Positions 3,364 through 62,214 of a DNA stretch of 64,000 nt are shown piece after piece. Origin of the DNA: Gigantopelta aegis (Eukaryota > Mollusca > Gastropoda > Neomphalida > Peltospiridae); assembly GCF_016097555.1 (NCBI RefSeq), contig NC_054704.1:28066207-28130206 (forward strand). The letters are read 5' to 3'. The position numbers were made by a program, and so were the translations under genes. Positions within the stretch are counted from its first letter, which is position 1, and each line of letters begins with the position of its first letter. The notes beneath the pieces are model-generated. The model was given only the letters and a program-made list of their open reading frames with translations, was not told the DNA's origin and made no database searches.

Positions 3364-3563
3364 GGTGGAAGGTCGGGAAATGTTTTCATGGTAGTGTTGT
3401 TTTCTTTCCATCGCATCCTCCTCAAATCGGACAAGTCTTTCAGTCTGTGGATGATCGACAGGAACTTTTTCTGAATGGGGAATTCATCAGGTTTTCCCCA
3501 ACGTTTCCACGAATCAATAACTAGGAGTTCGGTGAAATATGACTTGACTGGGACATTTTCAGT
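3364..3563 (-). CDS. OAS-1 coding exon 4: OAS C-terminal domain
   Basis: Acceptor ATTTTAG|ACTGAA and donor CCACC|GTAAGT; 200 bp, phase 0 to phase 2. It reads TENVPVKSYFTELLVIDSWK and then RWGKPDEFP, matching OAS ELLTVYAWERG. The final exon (DVMNPFNNV in OAS-2) is expected about 550 bp left of position 1. Confidence 0.9.
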
Positions 3564-9211: not shown

Positions 9212-12200
9212 ATGTGCATACATGTATATATGAAATATGTTATAATTTTATTATTATTGTACATTTGTAAGACGATGACTCAAGGCACCCCAATCTTGGC
9301 ATTGCCAGTGATCTGGGGTAGATCTACTGGTAGACCAGTAGAGCTCATTTTAATCAGATTGGCAAAAATCAGACTGCTCCACCCACCCCTCCCCCACCCT
9401 ATAAAAATAGGACCTCATACATCTATCTCTTTACATGTTTTTATATACATTTTTACGTGCAATTCAATTCAATTCAATTCAGTTTTATTGTACAAAACAC
9501 TCATAAGGAGCAGGCACAAACACAATTTTTAAAAACATGTATGGTTAACACCTAATAGGTCCATGACATTATTTACATGCAAGTAGTTGACTTACTGACA
9601 CGGTACTTTACCTTTGTCCAGTACTTGACGAGTCTTGTCAGATGTTTAACATCTGGTGGAACGTACTTCACGAATTCGGTTTGCTTCTTGGCAAAACATA
9701 CAGAATAATATTGTCGTTCTTCCTCGGATAATGTTTTCATTTCTTTGTAGATGTATTTCGGTTCTTCTGAAATTTAAAAACAAGCTTAAAAGCCTAAACT
9801 TTAGCTTACGTTTATGGTTTACGCTATAACGACGTGTTAAAATATATTGTTATCATATCTCGCTCGGAAACTGGCAAACATATATATTTTTAAGCAAATT
9901 AAAGATGTCTTACCATGTGTGTATATTTGCCATTGCATTGCACTGAGCAGGACTCAAGCCACGTTTTTTTTCTTCTTTTTATAATATTGCATTAATACTT
10001 GATTGTAACTTTTGCAACTCTCCAATACAACAATATTTGCTTGTCTTCGTCATTTAGCGCTCCCCTTAACAAAGCTGCAGTGTACATGATTCAGAATTTC
10101 TAACTAATCTGACAAACTCAAAACAAAGGAACTTACATACATGTAGCAAAATCTTTAAATTATATTTTCTGCTATATTGATGACCTCGTAGACTTCGATT
10201 ATATTGCATGACAATGCCAGCAGTTCAGCTTCCATTGATTTATCAACCAAAGTTAGAAATAAAAGGTTAACAATAGAAAGTAATCCTGTTCAGGCCTTGA
10301 TCTTTATATATATAGATTCAAATCGACACTGGCTTCCAGATATATCATGCAATATTCTTCAGTATTTTGGCATAAAAGTTGCTTTATCATACCGGTTATT
10401 TCCTAGTATTTCAAAACGTTTTATGACCAACATGTAGATGCCGCTTTGATGATATGACGCATCAGTGACAAAAATGAAATGGGATGCAATACCTTATGCA
10501 ATACCTTTTGCTGAAAACGTTCAAGGACTACTACACCTTTACTGTTAACAGGAGATGCGTATGTTGGCGGTGATTCGTAATGATACATTTTTAAGACGGT
10601 AGTGTGTTTCGTTTTTCATAAATATGTTCATTAATAAAGGAAGTGATCATACATGTAGTTCTGAGGCATAGGCGTACGGGTTCCCATTTTTATAGGGGGG
10701 GGGGGGGGGGGGCAGACTGATTATTGCCCGAATTAAACAAAAATGCCCGAATCAGGATAACAACATTTATTCATATTACTATTACTACCAAGCAGCTATA
10801 TACGGTTGCAAAGGAATCACTACACATTTGTACATGAATTACAACTATTTGAAATGATGGAAATAAATGGTAAAAAGGTCTCAGGTTAGCACATTTTGCC
10901 CAGGTCCATATCCGGTTTGTTTGATTACCGACTATATGACCTAGTGTTCTAAGGCGCAGCGTAGCCTACTATTAAGGAACAGAGCACTATACCAAAGGTT
11001 CAAGTCTAAGCCTACACAATACCATGTAGTGCTTAGAATTGAATGTGTATTGAATTAATGTCAATTTAAATCTCACTGGATCCAGTTAGTATCACTGAGT
11101 GGTTTGAATGTATTTTCCTGCACATAAGACAGCACATACCACGGACTGAACTACATGTACTAGTCGGAAAATAGTCTAATGGTGAGGATTGATGCCGCCG
11201 ACCTATAATATTTGGTTCGAGAGTGAATTAGACAGAGACATTTCTAGACAATTGTGTCGTATTTGAAGCTAACATGCATCACTGAAAACAGACATTTGCG
11301 CTGGCATTGTTGGAAAGACGTGGGGGTGGAGGGGACAATGCTACATAGTGTCCAAATTTTAACGTTTAAAACATTCCTGAAAATCCAAAAAGAAAGCAAT
11401 TATATTTATTTGCTAAAATTAAATAGCTTTCCATTATTTCTATGTCCTCACCAACATCTACACCACACAAATAAATTACAAAAATAAATTAAATAAATAA
11501 AAAAATAAAAAACTTAAAAACTAAAAAGAAAAACATGTAAACCAGTGGACTACTCTCAATTTCGCAAAGAGGATATAACCAGCTTTGAATGTCATTCCTT
11601 GAACTGATCTTACTGTTTTGAAGAAGATCCGGTGCTGGCAGCAAATCCACTTTAATGGGCGCGTATCCAGGTAGTTTCACTTCAAACTGAACCGCGTGTT
11701 TCGTCGTCCTGGTGATATTCACGCCTTTAGCCCAGGTCAAGTCTTTCTTCATATGATTCGTCAACGCTTGCAAGTCCTTGGACACGTTCTTCCGGAACTC
11801 TTTCATGGTGCCGTAGCGATTGCTGTACATAACAAGATCAACATCTGAATGGCCCAGCAGATTAGTTTTTTTGCCTTGCGATCCACCCTAGAAACAAACA
11901 ATGTGATTCAAATCAAATCTTACTGTTTTTCCGCTTCGATACATAACTATTCCAAAACCATTTGTCTTTGTTTTTATATTGATAAATTAAATACACTCAG
12001 TCATGGTCTATTTTTATTAGAAATTATTTTTATCAAGGGTATATTAATACCAAGGAATCAAATGAAAAATTAGAAACAGAAAATCAAATAATGCTGTTGA
12101 AATTACGTTACGATTATAGTGAAAGGAAGGAGCGTGTTGACAAAATTTAATTTTAAAAAGTTGGGGAGGGGGGGAGGGGGGGAGGGGGGTAAATAAATTA

Positions 12201-12911
12201 TCATAGGGTCTATTAAAAAAAAAATCCTACATTTTCAGTTAAAGTTGGGGAAGAGCTAACTTATGTTATACGTTGATATCCTGGGTCCTGACTCATGTCC
12301 TGACCAATTTTAAAAGCCGGATCCCAAGGCAGGTTTAAGTGCATAACAACCTTATACACCCAGATAAATGCATTCTGTTCTGGTATGTACACCTAGATAA
12401 AAAAAAAAATACGTACAACAAACAATTCTTTGATATTGTATCCTGTGTTGTGCTGCACAAACATCTTCAGACGATCCACGACTTCCTTACTTTTTGTCTT
12501 ATACTCTTTGTCAGGAAAGACGTTCTTCTGCATGAAGTCATTCAGATTTTGCCCCTTCTGTCCTCCCTTAAGTACGCCAGAAAGCCATGAGTTGGTACTG
12601 GATGTGCTTTGGCTGATGTAATGATTCATGTTGCCCGCGTGCTTAAGAAGATCGCCTCTAGTTGGGAACGATGTTCTGCACACCTTACAACTATTCGTTT
12701 TGTGGTCAGCTTTAGTAGAATGCTGGTCTAGAGCATGTTGGAGGAAGAAGTATCTATCGCAGCTTGGGCATTCGTAAATGAGATGTTTATCCAGCATGTG
12801 CGCTCGCATAACATCTATGCTGACATCTGTGATCTTGAAACTGCATTTAGAACACTGTCCGCTATGAAGTGACTTTCTGAATCTGCAACCTTCCCCCGAA
12901 TCTGAAGTCAT
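3364..12911 (-). CDS. OAS-1: zinc-finger / 2'-5' oligoadenylate synthetase-like protein (4 of 5 coding exons, 3' end off window)
   Basis: Likely a cytosolic RNA-sensing nucleotidyltransferase that would make oligoadenylate or a related messenger when activated. Coding exons are 12911-12417, 11887-11554, 9766-9612 and 3563-3364, joined in phases 0, 1, 0 and then 2; this gives 394 codons before the missing last exon. Residues 20-97 hold three C2H2-type fingers: C20/C23/H38/H43, C48/C51/H64/H70 and C75/C78/H91/H97. The last two are CX2CX12HX5H, the spacing of double-stranded-RNA-binding fingers. Residues about 122-165 match the N-terminal OAS helix, and fingers and helix share one exon. Then come GGSQGKK at 166, catalytic D180 and D182, and D246 in IKVDLLPAPD, followed by LVKYW and ELLVIDSWKRWG. 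I chose the ATG just after the TTTACAG acceptor, because the upstream in-frame ATG lies before that acceptor. The fusion is seen directly; the function is inferred from the family. Confidence 0.88.
3600..4980. other. OAS-1 intron 3/4 spacer, no gene recognised
   Basis: AT-rich, with (CATA)n at 3665-3690. Copy 2 differs almost wholly here from about 3640 to 4830. At 4640-4740 a TGACGTCA-bearing stretch with ATGGCTGCCCC looks like a repeat rather than a gene start. Confidence 0.4.
4990..5095 (+). mobile_element. SINE tail fragment (family D) with (GAAT)n
   Basis: About nine GAAT units followed by GTTTAACGACACCCCAGCAC and ATCGGCTATTGGGTGTCAAA. The same tail occurs at 13025, 14830, 47075 and 57310. 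Confidence 0.7.
5636..5787. repeat. Fold-back (near-perfect palindrome) element
   Basis: Arms of about 65 bp pair almost fully: ATTTCATGGTG...GTGTGAAAACCATATTTTC against GAAAATATGGTTTTCACAC...CCATGAAAT. The equivalent hairpin in copy 2 is at 35970-36118, so it predates the duplication. Confidence 0.8.
6655..6740 (-). mobile_element. LINE 3' tail fragment, (CAATT)n end
   Basis: CAATTCAATTCAATTCAG is followed by TTTTATTGTACAAAACACTC and ATAAGGAGCAGG. The same tail is at 9461-9530 and 36453-36520. Confidence 0.7.
6785..8555 (+). mobile_element. 5'-truncated LINE: reverse transcriptase C-terminal half to 3' end
   Basis: Begins in the reverse transcriptase palm (SIKGITTDGTEYLISQYADD), continues with SGLKINYTKSKAIWVGS, then LTALGRITILKTLIIPKIAY and a C-terminal CX2CX8HX4C knuckle (CSFCKNVPETLQH). 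A frameshift follows YADDTT at about 6873, another lies near 7080, and more follow near 7700 and 7880, so it is dead. The motif set resembles L1/Tx1-type LINEs; the clade is not certain. It lies inside the 3.3-kb element. Confidence 0.85.
8559..9361. repeat. Right part of the 3.3-kb element with (GTAT)n/(GT)n microsatellite
   Basis: Positions 9005-9225 are GTAT and GT repeats; long frames here on both strands are low-complexity artefacts. The remainder, up to the terminal AGATTG, shows nothing recognisable. Confidence 0.8.
9461..9530 (-). mobile_element. LINE 3' tail fragment next to OAS-1 exon 3
   Basis: CAATT repeats, then TTTTATTGTACAAAACACTC and ATAAGGAGCAGG. Orthologous to 36453-36520, so inserted before the duplication. 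Confidence 0.7.
9612..9766 (-). CDS. OAS-1 coding exon 3: OAS helical spine
   Basis: Acceptor AAATTTCAG|AA and donor ACAAAG|GTAAAG; 155 bp. It reads EPKYIYKEMKTLSEEERQYY, then CFAKKQTEFVK and HLTRLVKYWTK, which matches the vertebrate OAS stretch ending LIRLVKHWYQ. It lies just right of a 3.3-kb transposon insertion. Confidence 0.9.
10668..10905 (-). repeat. Dispersed ~290-bp repeat, interrupted by poly-G
   Basis: GGCGTACGGGTTCCCATTTT, a run of about 16 G, then GCCCGAATTAAACAAAAATG. The equivalent copy is at 38403-38690. Confidence 0.7.
11554..11887 (-). CDS. OAS-1 coding exon 2: nucleotidyltransferase catalytic core
   Basis: Acceptor TTTCTAG|GGTGGA and donor GAGA|GTAGTC; 334 bp, phase 0 to phase 1. 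It carries GGSQGKK, the DVD catalytic pair and the third aspartate in IKVDLLPAPDLL, the pattern of OAS and cGAS enzymes. The donor is the only one of the GT choices kept in both copies that also fits the next exon's phase (E-K-EPKY). Confidence 0.93.
12417..12911 (-). CDS. OAS-1 coding exon 1: three zinc fingers plus OAS N-helix
   Basis: The acceptor TTTACAG is followed by CA and the ATG at 12911; the exon itself begins at 12913. The donor is GTT|GTACGT, phase 0. It encodes 165 residues: three CX2C/H-H fingers (20-43, 48-70, 75-97), a Ser/Thr-rich linker, then the helix LNDFMQKNVFPDKEY. This is one uninterrupted frame, so the fusion needs no splice guess. Confidence 0.9.
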
Positions 12912-23370: not shown

Positions 23371-24993
23371 TTAATAACGGGTATGACCACCTCTTGAATT
23401 GACCACTGCAGTGCATCGCAGGCGCATAGAACTGACTAAAGTGTTGATTTCTGCCTGTGGAATATTGTTCCATTCCTGAATGAGCGCTTGACGAAGTTCG
23501 TTGACGTTAGCGGGTGGGTTGGGACGACGTCTCAATCGTCTGTCCAGACTATCCCAGACATGCTCGATGGGGTTGAGATTAGGACTTTTAGCGGGCCAGT
23601 CATACAATCAATGTTATTTGTCCTAAGAAAATTTACAGTGTCTCTAGCTGTATGAGAGGTGGCATTATCACAATCTAATTAAAATTAGCTCCACTATTAC
23701 ATGTGGATCTAACACCAGCCAGTTGGAGCTCATGTCCACCAATCAAAACCTTACTTGCAGAATCCGGCCAGTGATTTAAAAATAATTTGAAAACATTCCG
23801 AATTATTCTGAGGGTATACGACATGTTTCATGTGAATTACGAATGCCTTAAAACATGTTTTATTTTATAAAATAAATAATTTGTAATGTAAAACTGAAGA
23901 CTGATTTAGTTGGGGTTTTTTTATAAATAAATAAATAATTTTTAATGTGAAATTGAAGACTGATAACCCACCCCGTACGTATTGGTATGGTTCGCTGTAC
24001 TGCGGCCACTAAAATAGACTCGCCCGATATTTTTAGAATTTGTATGCTCCCAAATAACGTTATAAAAGGCGAAGTGTGATTGGTCAATATTTAAATTATT
24101 ATTTACAGATGAAATGTTACCTGGAGATTGGGCACTACGCAATGTTGTTAGTTTTAAATCACTGGCAGGATTCTGCAAGTAAGGTTTTGATTGGTGGACA
24201 TGAGCTCCAACTGGCTGGTGTTAGATCCACATGTAATAGTGGAGCTAATTTTAATTAGATTGGCATTATCATGCTGAAAAATCGAGATGTTGGCGTTGTT
24301 GTGGAACAGAGGAATGACGTGATGAGCGAGAATGTCATCGCGGTAACGTTGAGAATTTAAATTGCCATCAATGACGACTAGTGGTGAACGATAACCATGG
24401 GCAATGGCTGCCCAGACCATGACATAACCCCCACCCCCGAAACGATCTCGTTCAAGAACACAACAGTCTGCATAGCGTTCATTTCTCCTACGGTAGACGC
24501 GCACCCTGCCATCACCACGTTGTAAAGAAAATCTGGATTCATCCGAAAAAAGAACGGTATTCCAGCGTCGCCGTATCCAACGAGTGTGTACACGTGCCCA
24601 ATTAAGACGATTTAGACGATGACGTTGCGTTAAAACGCATCCGACGTAAGGACGCCGTGCATGTAAACCGTTCTCCCGCAGACGATTACGAACAGTTTGC
24701 CCACTGATTCGGTTATTATGAAGCCCAGGTGTGTTAGCAGCAGTAGCAGTGGCAGTTTGGAATCGATTGCGCAAATGCGTGTTCATGATATAGCGGTCTT
24801 GACCACGCGTTGTAACACGCGGATGTCCACGACGTGGCAAGTCGTTGGTGCTTCCTGTCGTTCGAAATCTTACGCGAAGATTTCGTATCGCTCGACTAGA
24901 ACTCCCAACATGCCTTGCAACGTCTTCTGTCGACATGCCAGCATCAAGCATGCCAATCGCCCGTTCGCGTAAATTATTGGGTATTCTTGGCAT
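23371..24993 (-). pseudogene. Tc1-like (DD34E) transposase split by insertion
   Basis: The N-terminal part (24993 to about 24272) starts MPRIPNNLRERAIGMLDAGM, with a helix-turn-helix (TEDVARHVGSSSRAIRNL), RGQDRYI, LFSDESRF (first D) and FQHDNA (second D). The 592-bp element is inserted directly after HDNA. The C-terminal part (from about 23607) has SPNLNPIEHVWDSLDRRL with the catalytic E and ends GGHTRY. Apart from the insert it is close to intact; some sequence between the two parts near 23610-23660 also looks altered. Confidence 0.9.
23671..24262. mobile_element. 592-bp non-autonomous element with 9-bp target duplication, nested in Tc1
   Basis: Starts CAATCTAATTAAAATTAGCT and ends AGCTAATTTTAATTAGATTG; the inverted repeats extend about 130 bp. 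GCATTATCA is duplicated at 23662-23670 and 24263-24271. Same end family as 6046-9361 and 48607-48677. Long inverted repeats plus a 9-bp duplication suggest a Mutator-like MITE. Confidence 0.9.
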
Positions 24994-25329
24994 ACTAAAA
25001 ATGCTACAATGTAAAAAAAACGTTAATTTTTTTTACAAATTTTGAAGCGTTTTCGTTCACTTGACAACAATGTCAGTAAGACAAGTAAAACAAATTGACC
25101 GAATACTACACGGGACATGTTGAACCATGCATGCACGTGCAAATTGAATTCCACGTTGTCGACGATTAACAGTGCAAAAATAATCGATAAAATTCATGAA
25201 TCCTGATAATACAGCTCAAGGCTAATACTACCTATATAATTTCATTACACAATGAATTCTTTAACACAACAAATACTATATGTACAAATCGGAAGTTTCT
25301 TTTTTGTTCAGTATATATATATATATAAT

Positions 25330-30008: not shown

Positions 30009-30138
30009 TTACTCTGTACTCCACGTTGGTTTTCTGACGAGAAGACTGGTGGCTTTTTCCTCAACTTCACGCACATCCTCACCAGTTGGCGCCACATTGT
30101 TAAACGGGTTCATCACATCCAGCAATACCGGCCCCTCT
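30009..30138 (-). CDS. OAS-2 coding exon 5 (terminal)
   Basis: Acceptor CAATTAG|A; 130 bp ending in TAA. It reads EGPVLLDVMNPFNNVAPTGE and then DVREVEEKATSLLVRKP. The single first base completes the proline codon left by exon 4. The acceptor's pyrimidine tract is replaced by a (TTG/TTA)n microsatellite at 30147-30205. Confidence 0.88.
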
Positions 30139-33100
30139 CTAATTGAAAATAATAACAATAACAATAATAACAATAATAATAATAATAACAATAATAATAA
30201 CAACAAAAATAGGATAACCTGTGTGTCTGTCTTTCCACACTCATATACGAGATGGTTAAATCAAACCAATTAATTTCTTACAACGAAAGACGGTACGATC
30301 TATTCGCTACAGCCATAACTGCAAGTATAAAAATATTAGTAACGAAAAGGTAATTATACCGTCAACATTGTATTTTAAACCATAAGGTAATCGATTATTG
30401 TCTTGCCATTTCATGAACATTCACATTACCTTGGATAAAGCAGTCGACTAGTTTCGTTTCATTCCGTAATAATCCGTATAAGAATTAAAAGTGCAATGTC
30501 AAAGTTACATAATGGTAATTTCCCGCCAACATTATTTAGTAACTTTTGCTTTAAAATGTGCACATAAAAAATTTAAAACCCAATCATTTAATTTACTAAA
30601 AGAGTATTTAGGGAACGATCGACGAAGTACGATCAATTAAGTAATAACGCACACACGCCGTAACGTTCCTTTGTTCAACTCGTCTCTTTCCTAGGGCTCT
30701 TATTTTGTTACCGACAGTTAATTTTCCAAATTTTGTACATTCACTTATTTTGTAAGATTTGTTACGACTTGATAAGACAGGAATCTAGTCCCATAAGCGT
30801 ACAAGGCAGTGGTGTAAGGGGGAGGCAAACGCCCCCGCCCCCACCCCCACCCCCAGTGCTGGAGCAAAACCTCAAATTCGCGCACAAATTATGCAAATAT
30901 TCGCGACAAAATGTGCTACCGTGAGACCTTTTTACCATGTACTTTCATTATTCTACACTCAAAATTAGTTGTAATTAAATTTAAAATGCATAGTGATTCG
31001 TTTGCAATCCTATATAGCTGTTTGGTAGTAATGGTAATATGAATAAATGTTGTTATCGAGATTCGGGCATTTTCCTTTAATTCGCACAACATCCAGCCTG
31101 GGCCCTTACAAAACTGGGAGCCCGTACGCCTATATCTAGTCGTACTGAACGCGACTGTTTATACGACGTGCAAGTACGTTACAATTCGCGAGGTTTTTAT
31201 TTAAAGACTATGTATGGAGTCGATTAGTTTGTACTAGTCTTATTTATGACAAATTTTTGTAAGTTTAGCTAAAATTACACTGTGAACTGGATATGGAATT
31301 CAAGTAGTTTTAGTAGTTTTCATTAAATGATAATCACACATAGACTTTCAGAGGAATTTGTTGTTCCAAAAATCCAATGACTTGTGATGTCATGTATCGC
31401 GTTTTCCTTATTTCATCCTCAGAGACTGAACACTATTCTAAGTTTAGTAGGCAAGACAATTTTATAGCCATCACCAACAGAATAAAATTAAATTGTACTC
31501 ACCTACAAAATAATACATCTGGATATTTGCCTCTGTGTCCCCGGCTGCCACCTACACTCGTATAACATGTTTGGATTTTCCCTCCCATCCCACTAAATAA
31601 TTTCCTTGTGCTCTTTTTCTCGATTTTCATTTTCGAAGGTTATCTACAGTCAAACTTACGGTGGAAGGTCGGGAAATGTTTTCATGGTAGTGTAGTTTTC
31701 TTTCCATCGCATCCTCCTCAAATCGGACAAGTCTTCCAGTCTGTGGATGATCGACAGGAACTTTTCCTCAATGGGGAATTCATCAGGTTTTCCCCAACGT
31801 TTCCACGAATCAATAACTAGGAGTTCGGTGAAATATGACTTGACTGGGACATTTTCAGTCTGAAATTAAATCAAAAAGAGGAATAGACAAGAACAGAAAC
31901 TAAACAGAAATAGAAATCAAATCAAATCAAATAAAGGATCACACAGATAGCAACAACAAACAATGACTGCATCAAAAATCAATTCATATTGTCCGAAGTT
32001 GACTGGGAACATATAGGCAGCTCATTCAACACTACAGACATTCAATCCCACATTACAACTTGGTATGAAATACAGACATTACTACGCTAGTAGTGAATTA
32101 AATTTGGTCTACAAATTGATGTGTTCCCTTATTTCTTTCCATCAGTATATATAGATAGATAGATAGATAGATATACAGTGGACTGTCTAAAGCGGCCTTC
32201 ACATATCGGTCGCGGCGCCCGCGCGACTCCTAAAACAGGCCAAAAAGGACATTTTCGCGAGGCGCCCGGCTGGACGCTGCCCGACTTATACGAGCTCCGC
32301 TGCGATTTTCAGGGGTAGCCCGAAACCCGCGGGTGTGAAAACCTGACTCCCAAATCTGCGATTTTCCAAGCGTGATTTTAGGTCGTGGCAATCCCGTAGA
32401 CATGTGGCTAGGGCCCCGCCCGGCGGCCTGCCGGAAAACGACCGGTGATCTGGCGGCCGCCTGAAGATTTTGACGAAAATTATTGCGAAAAAACCGCCGG
32501 GCGTCGTGGGATTTTCACAGGCCCCTCACGGCCACCCTGCGATAGCCTCACGGTCCCCTCACGGATCCCGGGCGATTTGTACAACATCGGCCGGGCGCCC
32601 CGCTGGTCCCGACCCCACCCACGACGGCTTCTAAACGGCCCCCATGCGGGCCCCAACTGCCACCCCAAGATTTGGGCTCTGTTCTTTGATCAGCCGGCGC
32701 CCGCCAGATTATCTAGCGGTGTCCGGCCGACGCCCTGGCCGCCGCACTGTCTCCATTGCGATCCAATGTTCAAAGGGCACCGCCCGGGCCCCGTCGTAAT
32801 ATGTGAGGGCACACGTCGCAGACATGAAATTCGCCTGATTCATCCACGGGCTCTAAATCCAGCGGCGACTCCTGCGATTAAAAAAATCGCGCGGACGCCG
32901 GCTGATATGTGAGAGCCGCTTAAACCGGACTCACTTCGTACCGACAAACTAGTCCGGTTTACATAGAGGACCGGTTTAGACAGAGTTCATCCAGAGTTAT
33001 GGTTCTTGAATGATCGACAACTCGCGATCAACAATGACATTTGAACCCATGGATGATTGGGGAACAAGTTGACAAGTATAACTCGCCGAATTCACAAGAG

Positions 33101-36100
33101 TGAAATCAGTTAGGTATCAAAGAAAGAAATGTTTTATTTAACGACGCACTCAACACATTTTATTTACGGTTATATGGCGTCAGACATATGGTTAAGGACC
33201 ACACAGATTTTGAGAGGAAACCCGCTGTCGCCACTACATGGGCTACTCTTTCCGATTAGCAGCAAGGGGTCTTTTATTTGCGCTTCCCACAGGCAGAATA
33301 CCACAAACCATGGCCTTTATTGAACCAGTTATGGATCACTGGTCGGTGCAAGTGGTTTACATCTACCCATTGAGCCTTGAGGAGCACTCACTCAGGGTTT
33401 GGAGTCGGTATCTGGATTAAAAATTCCATGCCTCGACTGGGATCCGAACCCATTACCTACCAGCCTGTAGACCGATGGCCTAACCACACACACACTAACA
33501 CGTGCGAGTACATTTTGTATTTGATCTTGAGACGGCGTCCTGATTACTTGGCAATTGACGATCATTGTTCAACTAATTAAGCAGCCCGTCGTTCAGTCAA
33601 ATCCCAGTCCGGTGTAGACAGAGGTAATTAATGCATGAACGGTTCTTTCATTCTTGATTTTAGATCCGGAGTCCGGAGTAGACAGAATACGGATTAGGCA
33701 GAGATTTATACCCAAGAGATAAACGGTAGCTGGACGGGGCTTTAGGAATGGACCGGTTTACGCAGAGATCCGGATTACACAGAATCCGGTTTAGACGGAG
33801 TCCACTGTATATATATATATATATACTCTTCAAAAGAAGAAACGCAAAACCACATTGTCGTAACATTTGGAGAATTGATTTAATTATTGAATGGTGAGTC
33901 CGATAATTACCAAATGTTGCAGGATTGTTCACAATTCACTCTAGTCCATTGTGAGTAAGTGATAGGACACACCACCAAGGTCAAGGTCATCTGGAGTCAA
34001 TACCGGGTGTGGCCTCCGCGTGTGTTGACAACTGCCTGGCACCGCCTGCCCATTGAAGCAACCAGAGTACGGATGACGTCCCGTGGGATGGTGGCCCACT
34101 CGGCCTGCAAGGCTGCTGCCAGCTCGGGCAGGGTCTGGGGCTGTGGTTGTCGCTGTCGGAGGCGTCGGTCCAACTCGTCCCATAGATGCTCAATTGGGTT
34201 CAAATCCGGTGATATCGATGGCCAAGGAAGGACATTAATATTGTTGTTCTGTAGGAAAGCCGTTGTGAGACGTGCTGTGTGAGGCCTGGCGTTGTCATGT
34301 TGGAACACTGCGTTGGCGTTGGCCATAACTGGAACGATGTGTGGCCGGAGGATCTGGTCAATGTAGCCCTGTGCATTCAGGTTGCCCTGCACGTGGACCA
34401 GGTCAGTTCTGCCAGTGTGTGAGATGGCTGCCCACACCATGACACTACCCCCGCCGAATCTGTCCACTTCCTGCACGCAGTTTGCCGCATAACGTTCACC
34501 ACGACGCCTATACACGCGACATCTTCCATCATGACGTCGGAGCAGAAATCGGGACTCGTCACTGAACCACACCTGTCTCCATCGCAGTTGAGGCCATTGT
34601 CGATGGATCTGGCACCACTGCAGTCGGAGTCGACGGTGTTGTGGTGTTAAGATGACACCTCGAACTGGACGTCTGGCACGAATTCCTACCTCACGTAGGC
34701 GGTTCCGTACGGTCTGGTCGGATATCCTGCGCAAACCTGGTATTGCTGCGGCTGTGGAGGTGGCAGTAGTCAATCGTTCCCGAAGGTGGCGTACCCGGAT
34801 GTAGCGGTCCTGCCCGGGGGTAGTGACCCGTGGTCGACCGGATCTAGGGAGGTCACGTGTTGATCCATGTTGCTGGTAACGGTCCCACAGTCTGGAGATG
34901 GTGCTTGGGGACACATGGAATGCCCTGGCAACGGCCGTTCTGGATTCGCCTGCGTCTAGTCGGCCGATGGCATTGTTTCTCTGCGGTTCACTGAGACGTG
35001 ACATGTCCTGGATTGTCAACTGTCGGCCAGATACAGAGGCCAGGCAAGCGAACACCCTGCACTTTTATACTGTCGGTGTTCATGTTGCACGTGCAGACAA
35101 CGCACGTGCAGTGGTGACATGGTTTGCACGTGGCTGCGTTTTTGCGAATATTCACATTTTGGAACTTTATTGTACAGTAGCTGCGTTTTATCGAATGTAA
35201 CCGTGGGAATGTGTTTGGGACATGCAATGACCTTATATTCACAAAGCATGAACCGGTAGGAAACATAAAATCGGAGTTATAACCCATTTGTACCCTTTTG
35301 CGTTTCTTTTTTAGAAGAGTATATATATATATATATATAGCAATGAAATATATAGATCTACAGAAACCATAAAAGTGATATCAGGTGAAAAGTCATATTT
35401 TAGCTACAGTGACAATATACAAATCGTATTTACTTTTTTTTTTAAAGTTCATCATTAAATTATCTCCCTTTCTGTCATTTCTTCGTATTTAAGTTTAGTT
35501 ATTACCAACGCATATGATAGTATTTGAAAAGTAAAAAAGAAAAGAGGAGTAGTAATTTAAACAACTGTTGCTTTAAAAAAGGGATATGAAGTGCAATGAC
35601 GATAAAATATCTAAAACGAATTGAACACGAAGCTAAATAATGATGACACCGTGTCCTGTCATTGAGTGCAAGTTAAAATTTAACGGCTTTCGATTCGTTT
35701 TGTTTTCATGGGTTTATTTTGAGGATGGCTTTGTCAGGTATGTTTGCAGAGCAGTATTATTAAATAAATGTTAATTTAGTAATTAAATAAAGATAATTTT
35801 TATTCAAATTTCTTTTAAAAAGTCTATGGTCTAGTAAATGTTTTCTGGAACAGTTCTATCCGAAGAAATAAATTACTGCGTTACCTGTTTTCAATAGGAT
35901 AAGAGAAAGATATTAATAAAAAGCGAAAGACTGTCAAAAATTAGGAAAGATGTACGTAATAAATAGACCATTTCATGGTGTTTTTTAGAATACGATTTTT
36001 ATGTCAACTTGTGATGTGTGAAAACCATATTTTCATTCAATGCTTCGTAATTCGTGAAAATATGGTTTTCACACATCACTCGTTGACATAAACATCGTAT

Positions 36101-37490
36101 TCGAAAACCCCCATGAAATAGCCTCTATTTATTTGTAAAAGTACAGTGTTGGAGCCAATCTTCGCTTTCTGGCAAAACCAATGGAAATGTTCGGGCAAAA
36201 TGAGCTGGACTGAATACCTTTTACTATGTTTTTCCATCATTCTACTCATAATATGAGTTGTACATCTATATAAATAGATGTAGTTATTCGAATGGAACCC
36301 TATATAGCTGCTTGGTAGAAATTGTAAATATGAATAAACGTTGTAATGCAAATTCAGGCAGTTTCATTTAATTCGGGCAAATATCAGACTGCTCCACCCA
36401 CCCCTCACCCACCCTATAAAAATAGGACCTCATATCTTTACATGTTTTTACAATTCAATTCAATTTTATTATACAAAACACTCATAAGGAGCAGGTACAA
36501 AAACAATAACAATTACATGTACGTAAAACATGTATGGTTAACACCTAATAGGTCCATAACATTATTTGCATGCAAGTAGTTGACTTACTGACACGGTACT
36601 TTACCTTTGCCCAGTACTTGACGAGTCTTGTCAGATGTTTAACATTTGGGGAAACGGACTTCACGAACTCGGTTTGCTTCTTGGCAAAACATACAGAATA
36701 ATACTGTCGTTCTTCCTCGGATTTTGTTTTCATTTCTTTGTAGATGTCCTCCGGTTCTTCTGAAATTTAAAAACAAGCTTAAAAGCTTTAACGTTAGCTT
36801 ACGTTTATGGTTTACGCTATAACGACGTGTTAAAATACATTGCTATCATATTTTGCTCGGAAACTAGCAAATTAAAGGTGTCTTACAATTGCAACCATGT
36901 GTGGGGTTTTTTATGCCATTGTACTGCACTGCACTGAGCAGGACTCGAGCCACTTGGGGGGGGGGGGGGGGGGGGGGGCATAGCCCAGTGGTACAGTGTT
37001 CGCTCGATGTGCTGTCGCTGTTGGGTCGATCCCCGTCGGTGGGCCCATTGGGCTATTTCTCGTTCCAGCCAGTGGACCACGACTGACATATCAAAGGCCG
37101 TGGTATGTACTACCCTGTCTGTGGGATGGTGCATATAAAAGATCCCTTGCTGCTAATCGGAAAGAGTAGCCCATGAAGTGGCGACAGCGGGGTTCCTCTC
37201 TCAATATCTGTGTGGTCCTTAACCATATGCCTGACGCCATATAACCGTAAATAAAATGTGTTGAGTGCGTCGTTAAATAAAACATGTCTTTCTTTCTTTC
37301 AAGCCACTGGATGAATTGGTTAAGTCAACACTGAGAGATTGTTTTTCAAACATCGCCTGAACTGACAAGATATATGCTTTTGCCACATATATGAGGGGCA
37401 CCTATCTTAAAATTGCCCACCGATGTAATAGTCAATCTTTCATGGTCAAACCTGTGTCGCTCTATGTCTACAGTGAAAGGGTTTTAACTC

Positions 37491-37564
<74 letters not shown>

Positions 37565-40500
37565 AAGCCAATTCATTCAATCATTTGCCTTCGTTAATAT
37601 TCTTGAAGTTGGTGAAAGTTACACAATTAAGAGCAGTAGAGTCCAATAAAATAATGCCAGGCCCGTATTTAAGGGGGGTGAGGGTCGGGGTGATTCGTCC
37701 GAACCTTCCCGCAAACGCTGAGGTCCACTTTTTTCTTTTCGTTTTATAATATTGCACTAATACTTGATTGTAACTTTTGCAACTCTCCAATACAACAATA
37801 TCTGCTTGTCTTCGTCATTTAGCGCTCCCCTTAACAAAGCTGCAGTGTACATAATTCAGCATTTCTAACTAATCTGACAAACTCAAAACAAAGGAACTTA
37901 CATACATGTAGCAAAAATGTTTAATTGTATTTTCTGCTGTATTGATGACCTCGTAGACTTCGATAATATTGCATGACAATGCCAGCAGTTCACATTCCAT
38001 TGATTTATCAACCAAAGTTAGAAAGTAATCCTGTTCCGGCCTTGATCTTTATATATAGAGATTCAAATCGACACTGGCTTCCAGATATATCATGCAATAT
38101 TCTTTAGTCATTTTGGCATAGAAGTTGCTTCATCATGCCGGTTATTTCCTAGTATTTCAAAACGTTTTATGTCCAACATGTAGATGCCATTTTGATGATA
38201 TAACGCATCAGAGACAAAAATGAAATGGGATGTAATACTTTATGCAATACCTTTTGCTAAAAACGTTTAAGGACTACTACACCTTTACTCCATGCGTATG
38301 TTGGCGGTTATTCGTAATGATACAATTTTTAAGAAGGTAGTGTCTTTCGTTTTTCATAAATATGTTCATTATTAAAGGGAGTGATCATACATGTAGTTCT
38401 GAGGCATAGGCGTACGGGCTCCCATATTTGTAGTATTTGGGGGGAGGGGGGGGCAGACTGGTTATTGCCCGAATTAAGCAAAAATGCCCGAATCAGGATA
38501 ACAACATTTATTCATATTACCAAGCAGCTATATAAGGTTGCAAAGGAATAACTATGCATTTGTACATGAATTATTTTTGCTGGTGGAATGATGGAAATAA
38601 ATGGTAAAAAGATCTCAGGTTAGCACATTTTGCCCGAATATCTCCATCATTTTTGCCCAAATTTGATGTTTTTCTCCAGCACTGGGGGGAGGGGGGGGGG
38701 GGGTAATCCTCCCCCGTTCCGCCTGCCCACTGTCTTGTACGCTTATACACATACCTTTTATGTTACTAACGTTATAATAAGTAATTGCCAATACCCGTAA
38801 CTTCTGTTGTGTGCTAGAATTTCATTATCTTAAAACATAAATAAATAACAAAAATACAATCTACAAAATAGTCGAAATGCATTGTTTTAAAATATCGTTT
38901 TTTAAGTTCCAGATGCCAGGAACATGCCCCTGGACGCCCACACACCCCCACCCCCACCCCCACCCCCACCCCCATACAACGCTCGAGGGCTTCACGCATT
39001 CAGGTAACTTCATATCCGAAAGGCCTCAGCAAATACCTAGTCGAACTCTTCCACTCGAAATGCTGGCTACGGGCCAGAATGCGTTACAGTAACGATCACA
39101 AGAAATAAAATGATAATAAGCGTACCAGGACTGACGCTGCTTCCAGTAGGGTAATCGATTATGTACGTTTCATTCTGTCAAAACGAATAACTTCGTCCAA
39201 CAGAGTAGTTCACTATTTTCATTAACTATAGACTCCGATCGCCAGATATCTGCCCAGGATGGATATACCTGAGCTTTAATTGGATATGGGCATATTAAAG
39301 AGAATCCAGGTCCATATCCGGTTTGTTTGATTACCGACTGCATGACATAGTGTTCTAAGGTGCAGCATAGCCTACTATTAAGGAACAGAACACTATATCA
39401 AAGGTTCAAATCTAAGCCTAGACGTAGTGCTTAAAATTGAATGTCTATTCAATTAATGTCAATTTAAATCTCACTGCATCCAGTTAGTATCACTGAGTGG
39501 TTTGAATGTATTTCCCCGCACATAAGACAGCACATACCACGGACTGATCTACATGTACTAGTCGGAAAATAGTCTAATGGTGAGGATTGATGCAACTGAG
39601 CTATAATATCTGGTTCGAGAGTGATTTAAACAGAGTAGAGACATTTCTAGACAATTGTGTCGTATTTGAACCCAACATGCATCACTGAAAACAAACATTT
39701 GCGCTGGTATTGTTGGAAAGAAGTGTGTGTATGTGTGTGTGTGTGGGGGGGGGGGGGGTACAATGCTATATAGTGTCCAAAATTTAACGTTTAAAACATT
39801 CCTGAAAATCCAAAAAGAAAGCAATTATATTTATTTGCTCAAATTAAATAGCCTTCCATTATTTCTATCAGATGTATGTCCTCACCAACCCCACACCACA
39901 CAAATAAAATTAAAATAAATTTACCAAAAAAAACAACTAAAAAAAACTAAAAAGGAAAATATGTAAAATAGTGGACTACTCTCAATTTCGCAAAGAGGAT
40001 ATAACCAGCTTTGGATGTCATCCCTTGAACTGATCTTACTGTTTTGAAGAAGATCCGGTGCTGGCAGCAAATCCACTTTTATGGGTGCATATCCAGGTAG
40101 TTCTACCTCAAACTGAACCGCGTGTTTCGTCGTCCTGGTGATATTCACCTCTTTAGCCCAGGTCAAGTCCTTCTTCATATGATTCGTCAATGCTTCCAAA
40201 TCCTTGGGCAAGTTCTCCCGGAAGTCTTTCATGGTGCCGTAGCGATTGTTGTACATAACAAGGTCAACGTCTGAATGGCCCAGCAGATTAGTTTTTTTGC
40301 CTTGCGATCCACCCTAGAAACAAACAATGTGATTGCTATCAAAACTTACTGTTTTTCCGCTTCGATACATAATGTTGGACTACTAGATATACGCTCTGGT
40401 TGTAAGCTTTTTGAACTGATCCTACTGTTTTGAAGAAAATCAGGTGTTGGTAGCAAATCCATGGGTGCGTTTCCAGGTAATTCCACTTCATACTGTCATT

Positions 40501-41686
40501 TTTATTGATAAACTAAACACAAATAATCATGGTCTTTTTTAATTATAAATGATTTTTTATATTAAAAACAAACAACCAGATAAAAAGCCAGTTACAGAAA
40601 ATCACATAATGTTGGTTAAAAAAGTAGGTGACATTGAAAGTGAACGAAGGGCGTCGTCTTGGCAAAACTTTTACTTAATTATGGAGGAGCGGTCTTAGTA
40701 TTACAAACGCTATATGAGGGATCATGTACAAAAATGCCCACATTTTGCATGAACGAGATCAATCAAAATAATAAATGATTTTCATGAATTATCATACAGT
40801 CGTAAAGAAAGTTTTAATTTAATTAAGTTAACATTAACAGATGATTTACGTGTTCCTTTCTCAAGTCTCTGTTATTTATTACAGCCGAGACCCTAGGCAG
40901 TTGGCCATACTCACCAGCACTATCGACGCTATTGGATGCATGGATGGATGGATAGATGATAAATAAATATAGATAGATAGATATAAAGAGTAACGCCGAC
41001 AGACGGGCAAGCAGGCTTGTCAGAAAGACATAAAAGAAAGGCACATAGATAAACAAAGACTCACAGGCTATAATTAACTAATATTGCAAAAGATACAATC
41101 AACTGGTTAAATAATAAAAATACCATAGAAACAAATGTATTCTTTAATATACACCTAAATAAATAAACAAATAAAGACATACAACAAATACTTCTTTGAC
41201 ATTGTATCCTGTGTTGTGCTGAACAAACATCTTTAGACGTTCCACGACTTCCTTGCTTTTCATCTTATACTCTTTGTCAGGAAAGACGTTTGTCTTCATG
41301 AAGTCATTCAGATTGTCTCCCTTCTGACCTCCTTTTAATACGCCAACCATCCAAGCGTTTGTCCTGGATGTGCTATTGCCTTGTAAACTAATATGGTGAT
41401 TTTTGGCATTCACATGTTCCAGAAGATCGCCTGCAGTATCGCGTGATGTTCTGCAGACTCTACAGGTATTCATTTTGTGGTATGCATTGTTAACATGATT
41501 GTGCAGAGATATTTGGAGAAAGAAGCCTTTACTGCAGCTTGGACATTGGTAATGGTGGTGCTTCTTCTTCATATGCTTTCGCATGGCGGTTCTTCCGGCA
41601 CCTGGATCCTCGAACGTACATTTGGAACAACTTCCGCTTTTAACTGATAATATGTATCGGCAATGCGCTCCTGAATCCGAACTCAT
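30009..41686 (-). CDS. OAS-2: zinc-finger / 2'-5' oligoadenylate synthetase-like protein (complete, 5 coding exons)
   Basis: Paralogue of OAS-1 in the second half of the tandem duplication. Coding exons are 41686-41183, 40313-39980, 36759-36605, 31859-31660 and 30138-30009. Phases 0, 1, 0, 2 agree at every junction, giving 440 codons and a TAA stop. Three fingers keep all ligands (C20/C23/H38/H43, C48/C51/H64/H70, C75/C78/H91/H97). The core has GGSQGKK at 169, aspartates D183 and D185, and D249 in KVDLLPAPD, so it looks catalytically competent. The last exon holds GPVLLDVMNPFNNVAP, equivalent to vertebrate ILDPADPTNNV. The C-terminus is short compared with human OAS1. A second-messenger enzyme role is inferred from the family; mollusc OAS products and effectors are not shown by sequence. 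Confidence 0.92.
30147..30205. repeat. (AAT/AAC)n microsatellite at the OAS-2 exon 5 acceptor
   Basis: On the gene strand this is TTG/TTA repeats immediately before the CAATTAG acceptor, in the place of the usual pyrimidine tract. Confidence 0.85.
30850..31137 (+). repeat. Dispersed ~290-bp repeat
   Basis: Ortholog of 145-428 within the duplication. Confidence 0.75.
31660..31859 (-). CDS. OAS-2 coding exon 4: OAS C-terminal domain
   Basis: 200 bp, acceptor AATTTCAG|ACT and donor CCACC|GTAAGT. It reads SYFTELLVIDSWKRWGKPDE followed by FPIEEKF. The large gap to exon 3 is filled by copy-2-specific transposons. Confidence 0.9.
32191..32920. mobile_element. 730-bp GC-rich element nested in the pogo-like element
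   Basis: Ends AGCGGCCTTCACATATCGG and, reversed right, AGCGGCTCTCACATATCAG, with related bases for about 45 bp. TAA is duplicated at 32188-32190 and 32921-32923. A 3-bp TWA duplication points to PIF/Harbinger. The 155-codon frame inside is compositional and not a recognisable protein. Confidence 0.75.
33125..33495 (-). mobile_element. tRNA-headed SINE (family B) with the shared body
   Basis: Reversed head contains GGGTTCGGATCCCAGTCG; the body includes GCGGGTTTCCTCTCAAAATC and the tail GTTGAGTGCGTCGTTAAATA. A similar full copy is at 53445-53840. Confidence 0.8.
33824..35319 (-). mobile_element. Apparently intact Tc1-like transposon (DD34E), copy 2 only
   Basis: Ends CTCTTCAAAAGAAGAAACGC and, reversed, CTCTTCTAAAAAAGAAACGC, with TA on both sides inside (TA)n tracts. 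It is 1.5 kb, with a single uninterrupted transposase frame filling the interior. It is absent from copy 1. Confidence 0.93.
33997..35055 (-). CDS. Tc1-like DDE transposase, full length
   Basis: Cut-and-paste transposase of the IS630/Tc1/mariner superfamily. It has 352 codons from the first ATG; the methionine at residue 18 (MSRLSEPQRN, about 335 residues) matches the usual start better. Residues about 30-65 form the first helix-turn-helix (AVARAFHVSPSTISRLWDRY) and 72-85 hold the GRPR hook (RSGRPRVTT). Catalytic residues are D166 (FSDESRF), D254 (FQHDNARPH) and E289 ([12 protein letters not shown]); the D-E gap is 34, so DD34E. It ends GGHTRY. No stop or frameshift is seen, so it could be active; nothing in the sequence shows that it is expressed. 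Confidence 0.95.
   Translation of the reverse strand: MFACLASVSGRQLTIQDMSRLSEPQRNNAIGRLDAGESRTAVARAFHVSPSTISRLWDRYQQHGSTRDLPRSGRPRVTTPGQDRYIRVRHLRERLTTATSTAAAIPGLRRISDQTVRNRLREVGIRARRPVRGVILTPQHRRLRLQWCQIHRQWPQLRWRQVWFSDESRFLLRRHDGRCRVYRRRGERYAANCVQEVDRFGGGSVMVWAAISHTGRTDLVHVQGNLNAQGYIDQILRPHIVPVMANANAVFQHDNARPHTARLTTAFLQNNNINVLPWPSISPDLNPIEHLWDELDRRLRQRQPQPQTLPELAAALQAEWATIPRDVIRTLVASMGRRCQAVVNTRGGHTRY
35970..36118. repeat. Fold-back element, copy 2 ortholog
   Basis: Same hairpin as 5636-5787 (GTGTGAAAACCATATTTTC and its complement). Confidence 0.8.
36453..36520 (-). mobile_element. LINE 3' tail fragment next to OAS-2 exon 3
   Basis: CAATTCAATTCAATTTTATT followed by ACAAAACACTCATAAGGAGC; ortholog of 9461-9530. 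Confidence 0.7.
36605..36759 (-). CDS. OAS-2 coding exon 3: OAS helical spine
   Basis: 155 bp between AAATTTCAG and GTAAAG. It reads EPEDIYKEMKTKSEEERQYY, then CFAKKQTEFVK and HLTRLVKYWAK, colinear with OAS-1 exon 3. Confidence 0.92.
36960..37310 (+). mobile_element. tRNA-headed SINE (family A), copy 2 only
   Basis: Poly-G run, then CATAGCCCAGTGGTACAGTG head to TCTTTCTTTCTTTC tail. AGCCACTTG precedes and AGCCACTGG follows, a probable target duplication. Copy 1 lacks it at 9955. Confidence 0.85.
37494..37562. repeat. (TA)n microsatellite
   Basis: About 34 TA units. Confidence 0.9.
38403..38690 (-). repeat. Dispersed ~290-bp repeat
   Basis: GGCGTACGGGCTCCCATATT to TTTGATGTTTTTCTCCAGCA; ortholog of 10668-10905. 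Confidence 0.7.
39980..40313 (-). CDS. OAS-2 coding exon 2: nucleotidyltransferase catalytic core
   Basis: 334 bp with the same acceptor and donor as the OAS-1 exon. GGSQGKK, DVD and IKVDLLPAPD are intact. I count about 102 of 111 residues identical to OAS-1. Confidence 0.93.
40376..40495 (-). pseudogene. Decayed partial copy of the OAS catalytic exon in OAS-2 intron 1
   Basis: On the minus strand it reads QYEVELPGNAP, then MDLLPTPDFLQNSRISS, clearly related to QFEVELPGYAP and VDLLPAPDLLQNSKISS of exon 2. Two codons around the third aspartate are missing, and the GGS/DVD part is absent. OAS-1 has no such piece at the matching site, so it arose or was lost after the duplication. Confidence 0.85.
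41183..41686 (-). CDS. OAS-2 coding exon 1: three zinc fingers plus OAS N-helix
   Basis: The exon begins at 41688 after acceptor TTTACAG; the ATG is at 41686 and the donor is GTT|GTATGT. It has 168 codons. By my count only about 51 of the first 97 residues match OAS-1, although all 12 zinc ligands are kept. From residue 115 on (LKGGQKG, LNDFMK, FPDKEYK) the two are nearly identical. Confidence 0.92.
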
Positions 41687-60689: not shown

Positions 60690-61645
60690 ATGACACACGG
60701 TCAAGAGAAAGTGATAGAGGAAACACTGCCACAACATAGGCTACTCCTAACGGTAAACACACGGTCAAGAGAAAGTGATAGAGGAAACACACTGCCACAG
60801 TACATAGGCTATTCCTAACGGTAAACACATGGTCAAGAGAAAGTGATAGAGGAAACACTGCCACTACATAGGCTACTCCTAACGGTAAACACACGGTCAA
60901 GAGAAAGTGATAGAGGAAACACACTGCCACAGTACATAGGCTATTCCTAACGGTAAACACACGGTCAAGAGAAAGTGATAGAGGAAACACTGCCACTACA
61001 TAGGCTATTCCTAACGGTAAACACACGGTCAAGAGAAAGTGATAGAGGAAACACACTGCCACTACATAGGCTACTCCTAACGGTAAACACACGGTCAAGA
61101 GAAAGTGATAGAGGAAAGACTGCCACAGTGCACTATATAGGCTATTCCTAACGGTAAATACACGGTCAAGAGAAAGTGATAGAGGAAACACACTGCCACA
61201 GTGCACTATATAGGCTATTCCTAACGGTAAATACACGGTCAAGAGAAAGTGATAGAGGAAACACACTGCCACAACATAGGCTACTCCTAACGGTAAACAC
61301 ATGGTCAAGAGAAAGTGTTAGAGGAAACACTGCCACAACATAGGCTACTCCTAACGGTAAACACACGGTCAAGAGAAAGTGATAGAGGAAAGACACAGTC
61401 ACTACATAGGCTACTCCTAACGGTAAACACATGGTCAAGAGAAAGTGATAGAGGAAACGCACTGCCACTACATAGGCTACTCCTAACGGTAAACACACGG
61501 TCAAGAGAAAGTGATAGAGGAAACACACTGCCACAGTACACTATGTAGGCTATTCCTAACGGTAAACACATGGTCAAGAGAAAGTGATAGAGGAAACACA
61601 CTGCCACTACATAGGCTACTCCTAACGGTAAACACATGGTCAAGA
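60690..61645. repeat. Minisatellite, about 15 units of 62-74 bp, SINE-derived
   Basis: Unit: GGTCAAGAGAAAGTGATAGA, GGAAACACACTGCCAC, TAGGCTACTCCTAACG, GTAAACACA. Reversed, the unit matches the SINE body at 62275-62335 (GTTAGGAATAGCCTATGTAG, TTCCTCTATCACTTTCTCTT) and the general SINE segment GAGTAGCCCATGAAGTGG..TTTCCTCTC. Long Leu/Val-rich frames here are artefacts. Confidence 0.92.
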
Positions 61646-62214
61646 GGATTCCGAAACAATATGTAAATGTTTATAATTTGAAATTATACATTTTACGTGA
61701 ACATCAATTTAGATCTACGTGGTGGGGTTGTTCTTTTTTTAGCCGGGGGAGGGGGGGGGGAGATCCGTGCAACTGGGAAACCCCCCATAATCCTCCCCTG
61801 CATTATCACATTGACAATTGATTCAAAGCATCTGTGGGTTTTTTTTTAATATTGCTTGTATTTACAATTTTCTTTTGCATCTATTATTAATAAAACCACC
61901 GGATTTGGTATATTCCAGAGTAGGCCCTACTTCCATGTTATTTTATTTTCACATTTGTAATTTTTAAACTGCCTGAGCTCTCATTCATTATGGACCCACC
62001 ACTGGTTTCTATCCTTCGTATTATCTATGTCTGTTCATCAGTCTGAACTATTATGGGGTGGCCATGGAGATCTAATTGAAATCACATTGCTTCCAGTGGA
62101 CTTAAATCAATCAATCAATCAATCAGTTACATTGAGTTTCTTCGAATTTACTTACAGAGCCTCCAAGTTGGAGTGATCAAGATCTGAGTTCAGTCCTACT
62201 GAACTGGTACACCA

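Follow-up and report, generated by a model that had tools for sequence, protein, structure and literature searches.

A 64,000-bp window of the genome of the gastropod Gigantopelta aegis (contig NC_054704.1, here C6, C6:28066207-28130206; window positions count from its first base) contains two genes, A and B, in which C2H2 zinc fingers are joined to an oligoadenylate synthetase (OAS) domain. Gene A occupies window positions 41686 to 30009 on the minus strand with five exons. Its model gives 420 amino acids (aa) with the stop, instead of the 440 residues stated in a preliminary description of the window, and comprises three C2H2 fingers and a full OAS domain; all four introns are GT-AG, with phases 0/1/0/2 in agreement. 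Exon 1 (41183..41686, 168 aa) is a single open frame that runs from the start Met through the three fingers and a linker into the region of the OAS N-terminal helix, and its GT donor comes after a GTT codon. The fingers are located at 41558..41629 (C20 to H43, CX2CX14HX4H), 41477..41545 (C48 to H70), and 41396..41464 (C75 to H97). The last two possess the spacing CX2CX12HX5H, as do fingers 2 and 3 of gene B, and two fingers of this kind had been predicted. This is the spacing of fingers that bind double-stranded RNA (dsRNA). Exon 2 (40040..40313) encodes GGS (aa 169 to 171), the DxD pair D183 and D185 within SDVD, and the third Asp, D249. The OAS1_C match begins in exon 3 (36605..36759), which contains LVKYW and has Thr in place of R195 and Asn in place of K204 of human OAS1. 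Exon 4 (31660..31859) carries SYFTELLVIDSW and retains E233 of human OAS1, and exon 5 (30009..30138) adds the motif LLDVMNPFNNV, with DVMNPFNN close to the C terminus, followed by the stop. All motifs named in the preliminary description, GGS, the DxD pair, the third Asp, LVKYW, and a DxxNPxNN-like motif, were located in gene A.

Gene B, also on the minus strand, is a tandem paralogue of A with an identical splice pattern in the first four exons: exon 1 (12417..12911, 165 aa) with three fingers and the OAS N-terminal helix, exon 2 (11614..11887) with the catalytic motifs, exon 3 (9612..9766), and exon 4 (3364..3563). The colinear match between A and B extends as far as the window's left edge, and exon 5 of B is expected beyond window position 1. 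The two gene models bear out the earlier statements that A and B are tandem paralogues and that fingers and helix share one open exon in both.

Judged by its Pfam and PDB matches, the core is OAS rather than another nucleotidyltransferase family, as had been proposed. The Pfam family OAS1_C (PF10421, cut-off 19.9 bits) matched A with 56.6 bits (E = 3.3e-15) and B with 43 bits (E = 4.8e-11), and NTP_transf_2 was marginally over its cut-off in both genes; the matches of Pfam C2H2 models to the finger part of A and B were all below the cut-offs. PDB matches of the core, counted at E below 0.001, ranged from 4.3e-24 to 3.4e-4 and comprised OAS2 (the best, at 4.3e-24), pig and human OAS1, OASL, and OAS3. 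The OAS1 alignment begins at OAS1 residue 10-11, which is aa 125 of gene A, and this indicates that the N-terminal helix beside the fingers is part of the OAS domain. Membership in the ZFR/DZF group was rejected because A and B have no DZF match at E up to 10 and possess the catalytic Asp residues; chains of NF45, NF90, or ZFR were absent from the PDB matches at E up to 10. cGAS and the cGAS-like receptors (cGLRs) are likewise messenger-making nucleotidyltransferases, and cGAS has a zinc site, a ribbon within the Mab21 domain (excerpts of PMC10855445), but the Mab21 domain of these enzymes gave no Pfam match in A or B at E up to 10. A bacterial-type synthase was also rejected, with SMODS matching weakly in B only (E = 0.016), below the cut-off. 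A scan of viral_contigs with exons 2 to 4 of A returned 11 pattern-matching stretches and no relative.

Genome searches with exon 1 and exon 2 (1.149 Gb; copy counts are lower bounds) revealed that A and B are two of about 13 genes of a cluster on C6, with copies A to J at 27.99-28.42 Mb and K, L, and M at 29.1-29.17 Mb. Copy K, adjoining an assembly gap, consists of exons 3 to 5 only. The 12 exon-1 copies found were sorted into eight intact fusions (A, B, G, H, I, J, L, and M), three broken copies, and one fingerless copy, F. In the intact copies, fingers and N-terminal helix form one open frame of 163 to 248 codons, always with a start Met heading the finger part. A stop follows the helix in copy C. 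Fingers 1 and 2 of D and E are in a different frame from the helix, which in D is shared by a third finger-like stretch. Copies C and E are also broken at the start of exon 2, where the GGS region is out of frame with the remainder. A GT donor follows the equivalent Val or Ile codon in 12 of 12 exon-1 copies, and an AG acceptor precedes the GGS, SGS, or AGS codons in all 10 exon-2 copies compared (C and E left out). With eight of 12 first exons open through fingers and helix and the donor GT in every one, the fusion is not a chance arrangement.

In the DNA scanned with it, a finger hidden Markov model (HMM) built from the eight intact copies matched, besides these eight, the broken copies C, D, and E, none with an E value above 8e-15; the remaining matches up to E = 1 were weak and all within exon 1 of B, D, and E. 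In a search for the origin of the finger module, the fingers of L gave 37 mostly weak matches genome-wide, and the match at C10:34.95 Mb is a C2H2 exon of ordinary look. Five OAS-like genes, N, P, Q, R, and S, map outside the cluster, to C10 at 34.10 and 34.12 Mb and to C6 at 21.59-21.64 Mb. The finger HMM found no finger in the flanks scanned (best E = 0.24 in two of the pieces). Upstream of the exon of P, these covered about 10.6 kb, including 1.5 kb of N; for gene N they measured about 2.4 kb and for gene R 1.7 kb. No exon 1 turned up in Q and S, where the scan covered the 1.5 kb ahead of exon 2. Since the flanks of N, R, Q, and S were short, the designation “fingerless” is well tested for P only.

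Among the 28 pairs of intact copies, the synonymous rate (dS) of the finger part was unsaturated in 19, and the ratio of the nonsynonymous rate (dN) to dS in the fingers was 0.16 to 0.56 in 18 of these and 0.97 in the pair I-M. In only five of the 19 was dS below 1, with dN/dS of 0.42 for A-B, 0.48 for H-L, 0.34 for H-M, 0.56 for I-J, and 0.97 for I-M. A ratio below 1 in all 19 pairs indicates that the finger module is mostly under purifying selection. A decaying gene array without function would explain the stop in C, the broken frames at exon 2 of C and E, the separated fingers of D and E, and the fingerless F, but with eight intact fusion exons, these dN/dS values, and retained catalytic residues, it is hardly credible. 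Alternatively, an internal start, such as Met113, or an acceptor inside exon 1 may yield a finger-free OAS, so that fingers and enzyme would be separate proteins. Gene A does have an internal Met ahead of the N-terminal helix; however, most finger comparisons indicate purifying selection, the start Met heads the fingers in the eight intact copies, and reading from the exon-1 Met spans fingers and helix to the donor, which makes separate products very improbable.

The history of the array points to recombination between finger and catalytic exons. Copy I, with exons 1 and 2 paired by order across 2.7 kb, is closest to D in exon 1 (81% identity in the fingers, 95% in the helix) and closest to J in exons 2 and 3 (97% and 99%). 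Topology tests were run on nine copies, omitting C, F, and H. In these, exons 2 and 3 rejected the grouping of D with I with a p value of the approximately unbiased test (p-AU) of 7e-6, and exon 1 rejected the grouping of I with J. The finger and catalytic exons thus yield conflicting trees, indicating recombination between them. Copy H was not used as evidence in this respect because an assembly gap (28306207-28306406) parts its H-type exons 1 and 2 from A-type exons 3 and 4 (C6:28309381-28311549, 96% and 88% aa identity to A); this locus is either a chimera or a misassembly.

A gradient of divergence is also visible between A and B. The finger DNA of A is 94% identical to that of C and 65% identical to that of B, and exon 2 of A, B, and C is 93% alike throughout. 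Between A and B, dS declines from 0.90 in the fingers to 0.41 in linker and helix, 0.19 in exon 2, 0.13 in exon 3, and 0 in exon 4. Relative to the core, dN and dS of the A/B fingers were both raised (0 of 5,000 permutations each), and this joint increase indicates old divergence or exchange. The gradient is explained by gene conversion or unequal exchange in the 3' region or by an imported finger exon. Fast adaptive change of the fingers as its cause is not supported: positive selection on the A/B fingers was considered and dismissed, as dN/dS was 0.43 and did not differ significantly from that of the core (permutation p = 0.12).

The catalytic residues are conserved in the aligned copies of the cluster. 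Equivalents of D75, D77, D148, and K66 of human OAS1 are retained in 11 of 11 aligned exon-2 copies (C left out), that of E233 in 11 of 11 exon-4 copies, and GGS, SGS, or AGS is present in 10 of the 11 aligned exon-2 copies. Taken at the level of sequence, the fusion of fingers and OAS is real and repeated, keeps its catalytic residues, and resides in a recombining cluster. The situation is different for residues that bind dsRNA in vertebrates. In the OAS1 structure 4ig8, K60, K199, K204, and K206 contact dsRNA, and the N-terminal helix bears several further contacts between K14 and N31 (excerpts of PMC8143464). Parts of PMC6019448 describe that OASL requires the groove residues R195, K199, and a Lys given as K205, which must mean K204 or K206, as residue 205 is Leu in the numbering used here; activation of OAS1 has been tied to K66 and R195 (PMC11359028, in part). 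In the cluster, the equivalent of K60, assigned by alignment, is Val (10 copies) or Ile (2) in all 12 exon-1 copies, that of R195 is Thr (10) or Ala (2) in all 12 exon-3 copies, and that of K204 is Asn, Asp, Gln, or Glu in the same 12, which include the fingerless F as well as K and H2, two copies with no finger exon securely assigned to them. The set K60, R195, K199, K204, and K206, a mark of dsRNA-activated vertebrate OAS and not of the superfamily, is thereby incomplete in the cluster. The genes outside the cluster have the OAS catalytic motifs, too, except for Glu at the third Asp (D148) of gene S (C6:21635247-21636813), which also has Ile at R195 and may be inactive. Among them, K60 is Lys in all three seen, K204 is Lys in all four, and the R195 equivalents of four are Arg, Lys, Lys, and Ile (basic in three of four).

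The finger modules themselves were compared by pattern, profile, and charge. The strict CX2C...H...H pattern is present in all three fingers of A, B, C, and L, in fingers 2 and 3 of H and M, in fingers 1 and 2 of I and J, and in finger 2 of G; a CX4C variant occupies the position of finger 1 in G, H, and M. The dsRNA-finger family zf-C2H2_jaz was over the Pfam cut-off in M (23.8 versus 22.6 bits), the sole one of the eight intact copies, under it in B, G, H, and L, and absent from the match lists of A, I, and J. Copies H and L pass zf-C2H2_4 and L also zf-C2H2; G, I, and J pass no C2H2 model. The net charge of the module, calculated as K+R minus D+E, is basic in four copies, with +9 in A, +4 in B, +12 in I, and +9 in J.

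These data can be combined into a model of how the cluster proteins may act. The enzyme would produce an oligonucleotide messenger from nucleoside triphosphates (NTPs). In OAS1, the helix to which the fingers are fused belongs to the RNA-binding face, and the fingers would assume some or all of the role of the altered dsRNA groove in choosing the trigger of the enzyme. The fingers are read as the sensor part mainly because the N-terminal helix holds dsRNA contacts in OAS1, so that they adjoin the ligand face; the step from the fingers to activation is one that we infer. If finger exons are exchanged and the cores stay similar, the trigger would change and the output would not. We incline, with slightly better than even confidence, to the reading of an OAS-type messenger synthase that has handed some or all of its ligand recognition to an exchangeable finger module. 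Its extension, a recombining array of swappable finger exons over OAS cores that permits germline retuning of what sets off an oligonucleotide alarm, with the fingers replacing the groove, is tentative and rather doubtful.

A number of observations weigh against this model. The finger modules of G (0), H (-5), L (-7), and M (-2) are not basic, and with half of the eight intact modules in this group, one nucleic acid reader for all of them is disfavored; M combines an acidic module with the only passing zf-C2H2_jaz score. Position -1 of the finger helix is invariant, with Leu in finger 2 (nine copies) and Thr in finger 3 (six copies), so that the fingers are unlike diversified sequence readers, and position +3 in finger 3 is Asp. 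The equivalents of K199 and K206 are Lys or Arg in 12 of 12 exon-3 copies and in 10 of 10 tabulated rows of the cluster, respectively, meaning that the vertebrate groove has not just been wiped out. In the fingerless genes, K199 is lost (four of four), as are R27 and K42 (three of three seen), and neither group therefore keeps the vertebrate groove. The fingerless genes retain K60, K204, and mostly R195 and have lost K199, and the cluster is the reverse; the groove is altered in both groups, at different places, and the finger group is without R195. A core tree of 10 cluster copies, five fingerless genes, and two OAS1 sequences splits the cluster from the fingerless genes and OAS1 with a support of 99, but this tree is unrooted and does not prove a loss of the groove on the finger branch. 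As regards exon 1, the recombination test has little strength (p-AU = 0.029; support of 67 for D with I), and the broken copies C, D, and E indicate that part of the array decays.

Some of these findings would fit a different function, in which the fingers contact a protein or direct the enzyme to its place, and OAS still senses RNA via the remaining basic groove, making the module a targeting device. The net charge of 0 to -7 in G, H, L, and M, the short linkers of about four residues between the fingers, the invariant -1 residues, and the basic K199 and K206 agree with such a function; the basic modules of A, B, I, and J, the score of M over the dsRNA-finger cut-off, and the replacement of K60, R195, and K204 in every cluster copy examined do not, and we regard it as unlikely, albeit to be taken seriously. 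The cluster may also be mixed in this respect: the basic modules (A, B, I, and J) may bind nucleic acid, and the non-basic modules (G, H, L, and M) may bind a protein.

The preliminary description had assumed an ordinary dsRNA-activated OAS with dsRNA-binding fingers as a second contact. The spacing in fingers 2 and 3, the passing zf-C2H2_jaz score of M with weak matches in B, G, H, and L, and the basic charge of A, B, I, and J speak for dsRNA reading by the fingers; against it stand the non-basic half of the intact modules, the short linkers, and the zf-C2H2_jaz scores below the cut-off or unlisted in the other copies. The replacement across the cluster of R195, which is linked to activation (PMC11359028, in part), and of K60 and K204 counts further against a second contact, and this version appears improbable. 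The fusion, the tandem paralogues, and the OAS family of the preliminary description stood; its reading of nucleic acid or dsRNA by the fingers is conjectural. Its claim that the fingers add a second reader may even be wrong in kind, because with K60, R195, and K204 replaced, they may replace a reader rather than add one.

Compared to known proteins, the cluster genes share the N-terminal helix, GGS, the equivalents of D75, D77, and D148, and the OAS1_C region with vertebrate OAS1, OAS2, OAS3, and OASL, as judged by sequence. They differ from these by the replaced K60, R195, and K204 and by their N-terminal zinc fingers, in place of the extra OAS units of OAS2 and OAS3 or the C-terminal ubiquitin-like domains of OASL. 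The closest published architecture within the literature searched is that of ZFR, in which three C2H2 fingers at the N terminus precede a nucleotidyltransferase-fold DZF domain without catalytic residues (excerpts of PMC5861047). In contrast to this non-catalytic DZF, the cluster core retains the catalytic residues and matches OAS1_C, not DZF, and the DZF matches of the G. aegis genome sit on contigs other than that of the cluster. The finger linkers also differ, being long in ZFR and about four residues in the cluster genes.

A search of the open PMC literature on invertebrate, finger-bearing, or multidomain OAS yielded no finger-OAS protein, in agreement with the earlier remark that this is not a standard OAS architecture. 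OAS genes without RNase L are listed for oyster, limpet, and other invertebrates, and sponge OAS also form 3'-5' links, according to parts of PMC6307210; the word “zinc” does not occur in this paper or in PMC10732462. For Aplysia, PMC9334734 reports that no OAS was found. In the G. aegis genome, a search for the RNase L nuclease family turned up a single partial match, located on C8, that may be IRE1, and STING gave no match, a search result that is not proof of absence. The mollusc-type haemocyanin family Haemocyan_bet_s had five matches in this genome, on two small contigs, in keeping with a mollusc.

Other features of the window were also recorded. A copy of the 3' end of exon 2 is located at 40424..40495 on the minus strand in intron 1 of gene A; such a duplicate upstream of exon 2 exists in A and C (C6:27997455-27997529) and was not found for B. 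Intron 3 of gene A contains a Tc1-like transposase frame (34000-35064, minus strand) with DDE_3 and HTH_Tnp_Tc3_2, and a second such frame (24157-25032, minus strand) has HTH_Tnp_Tc3_2 without DDE_3. A tandem array of about 14 copies of a 66-bp unit occupies 60693-61646. An open frame of 206 codons on the plus strand (7100-7717) resembles, on inspection, a fragment of a long interspersed nuclear element (LINE); a Pfam scan of it to E = 0.01 gave nothing. An Rfam scan of the window gave no match.

Concerning the biological meaning, OAS is known to read dsRNA with the surface of the enzyme itself, and here is a cluster without three basic residues of this groove and with fused fingers under selection. 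The cluster makes the question of the ligands of invertebrate OAS directly testable. It may represent an active counterpart to ZFR, the nucleotidyltransferase domain of which has no catalytic residues. Shuffling of finger exons against catalytic exons would let new innate sensors arise by simple genetic means.

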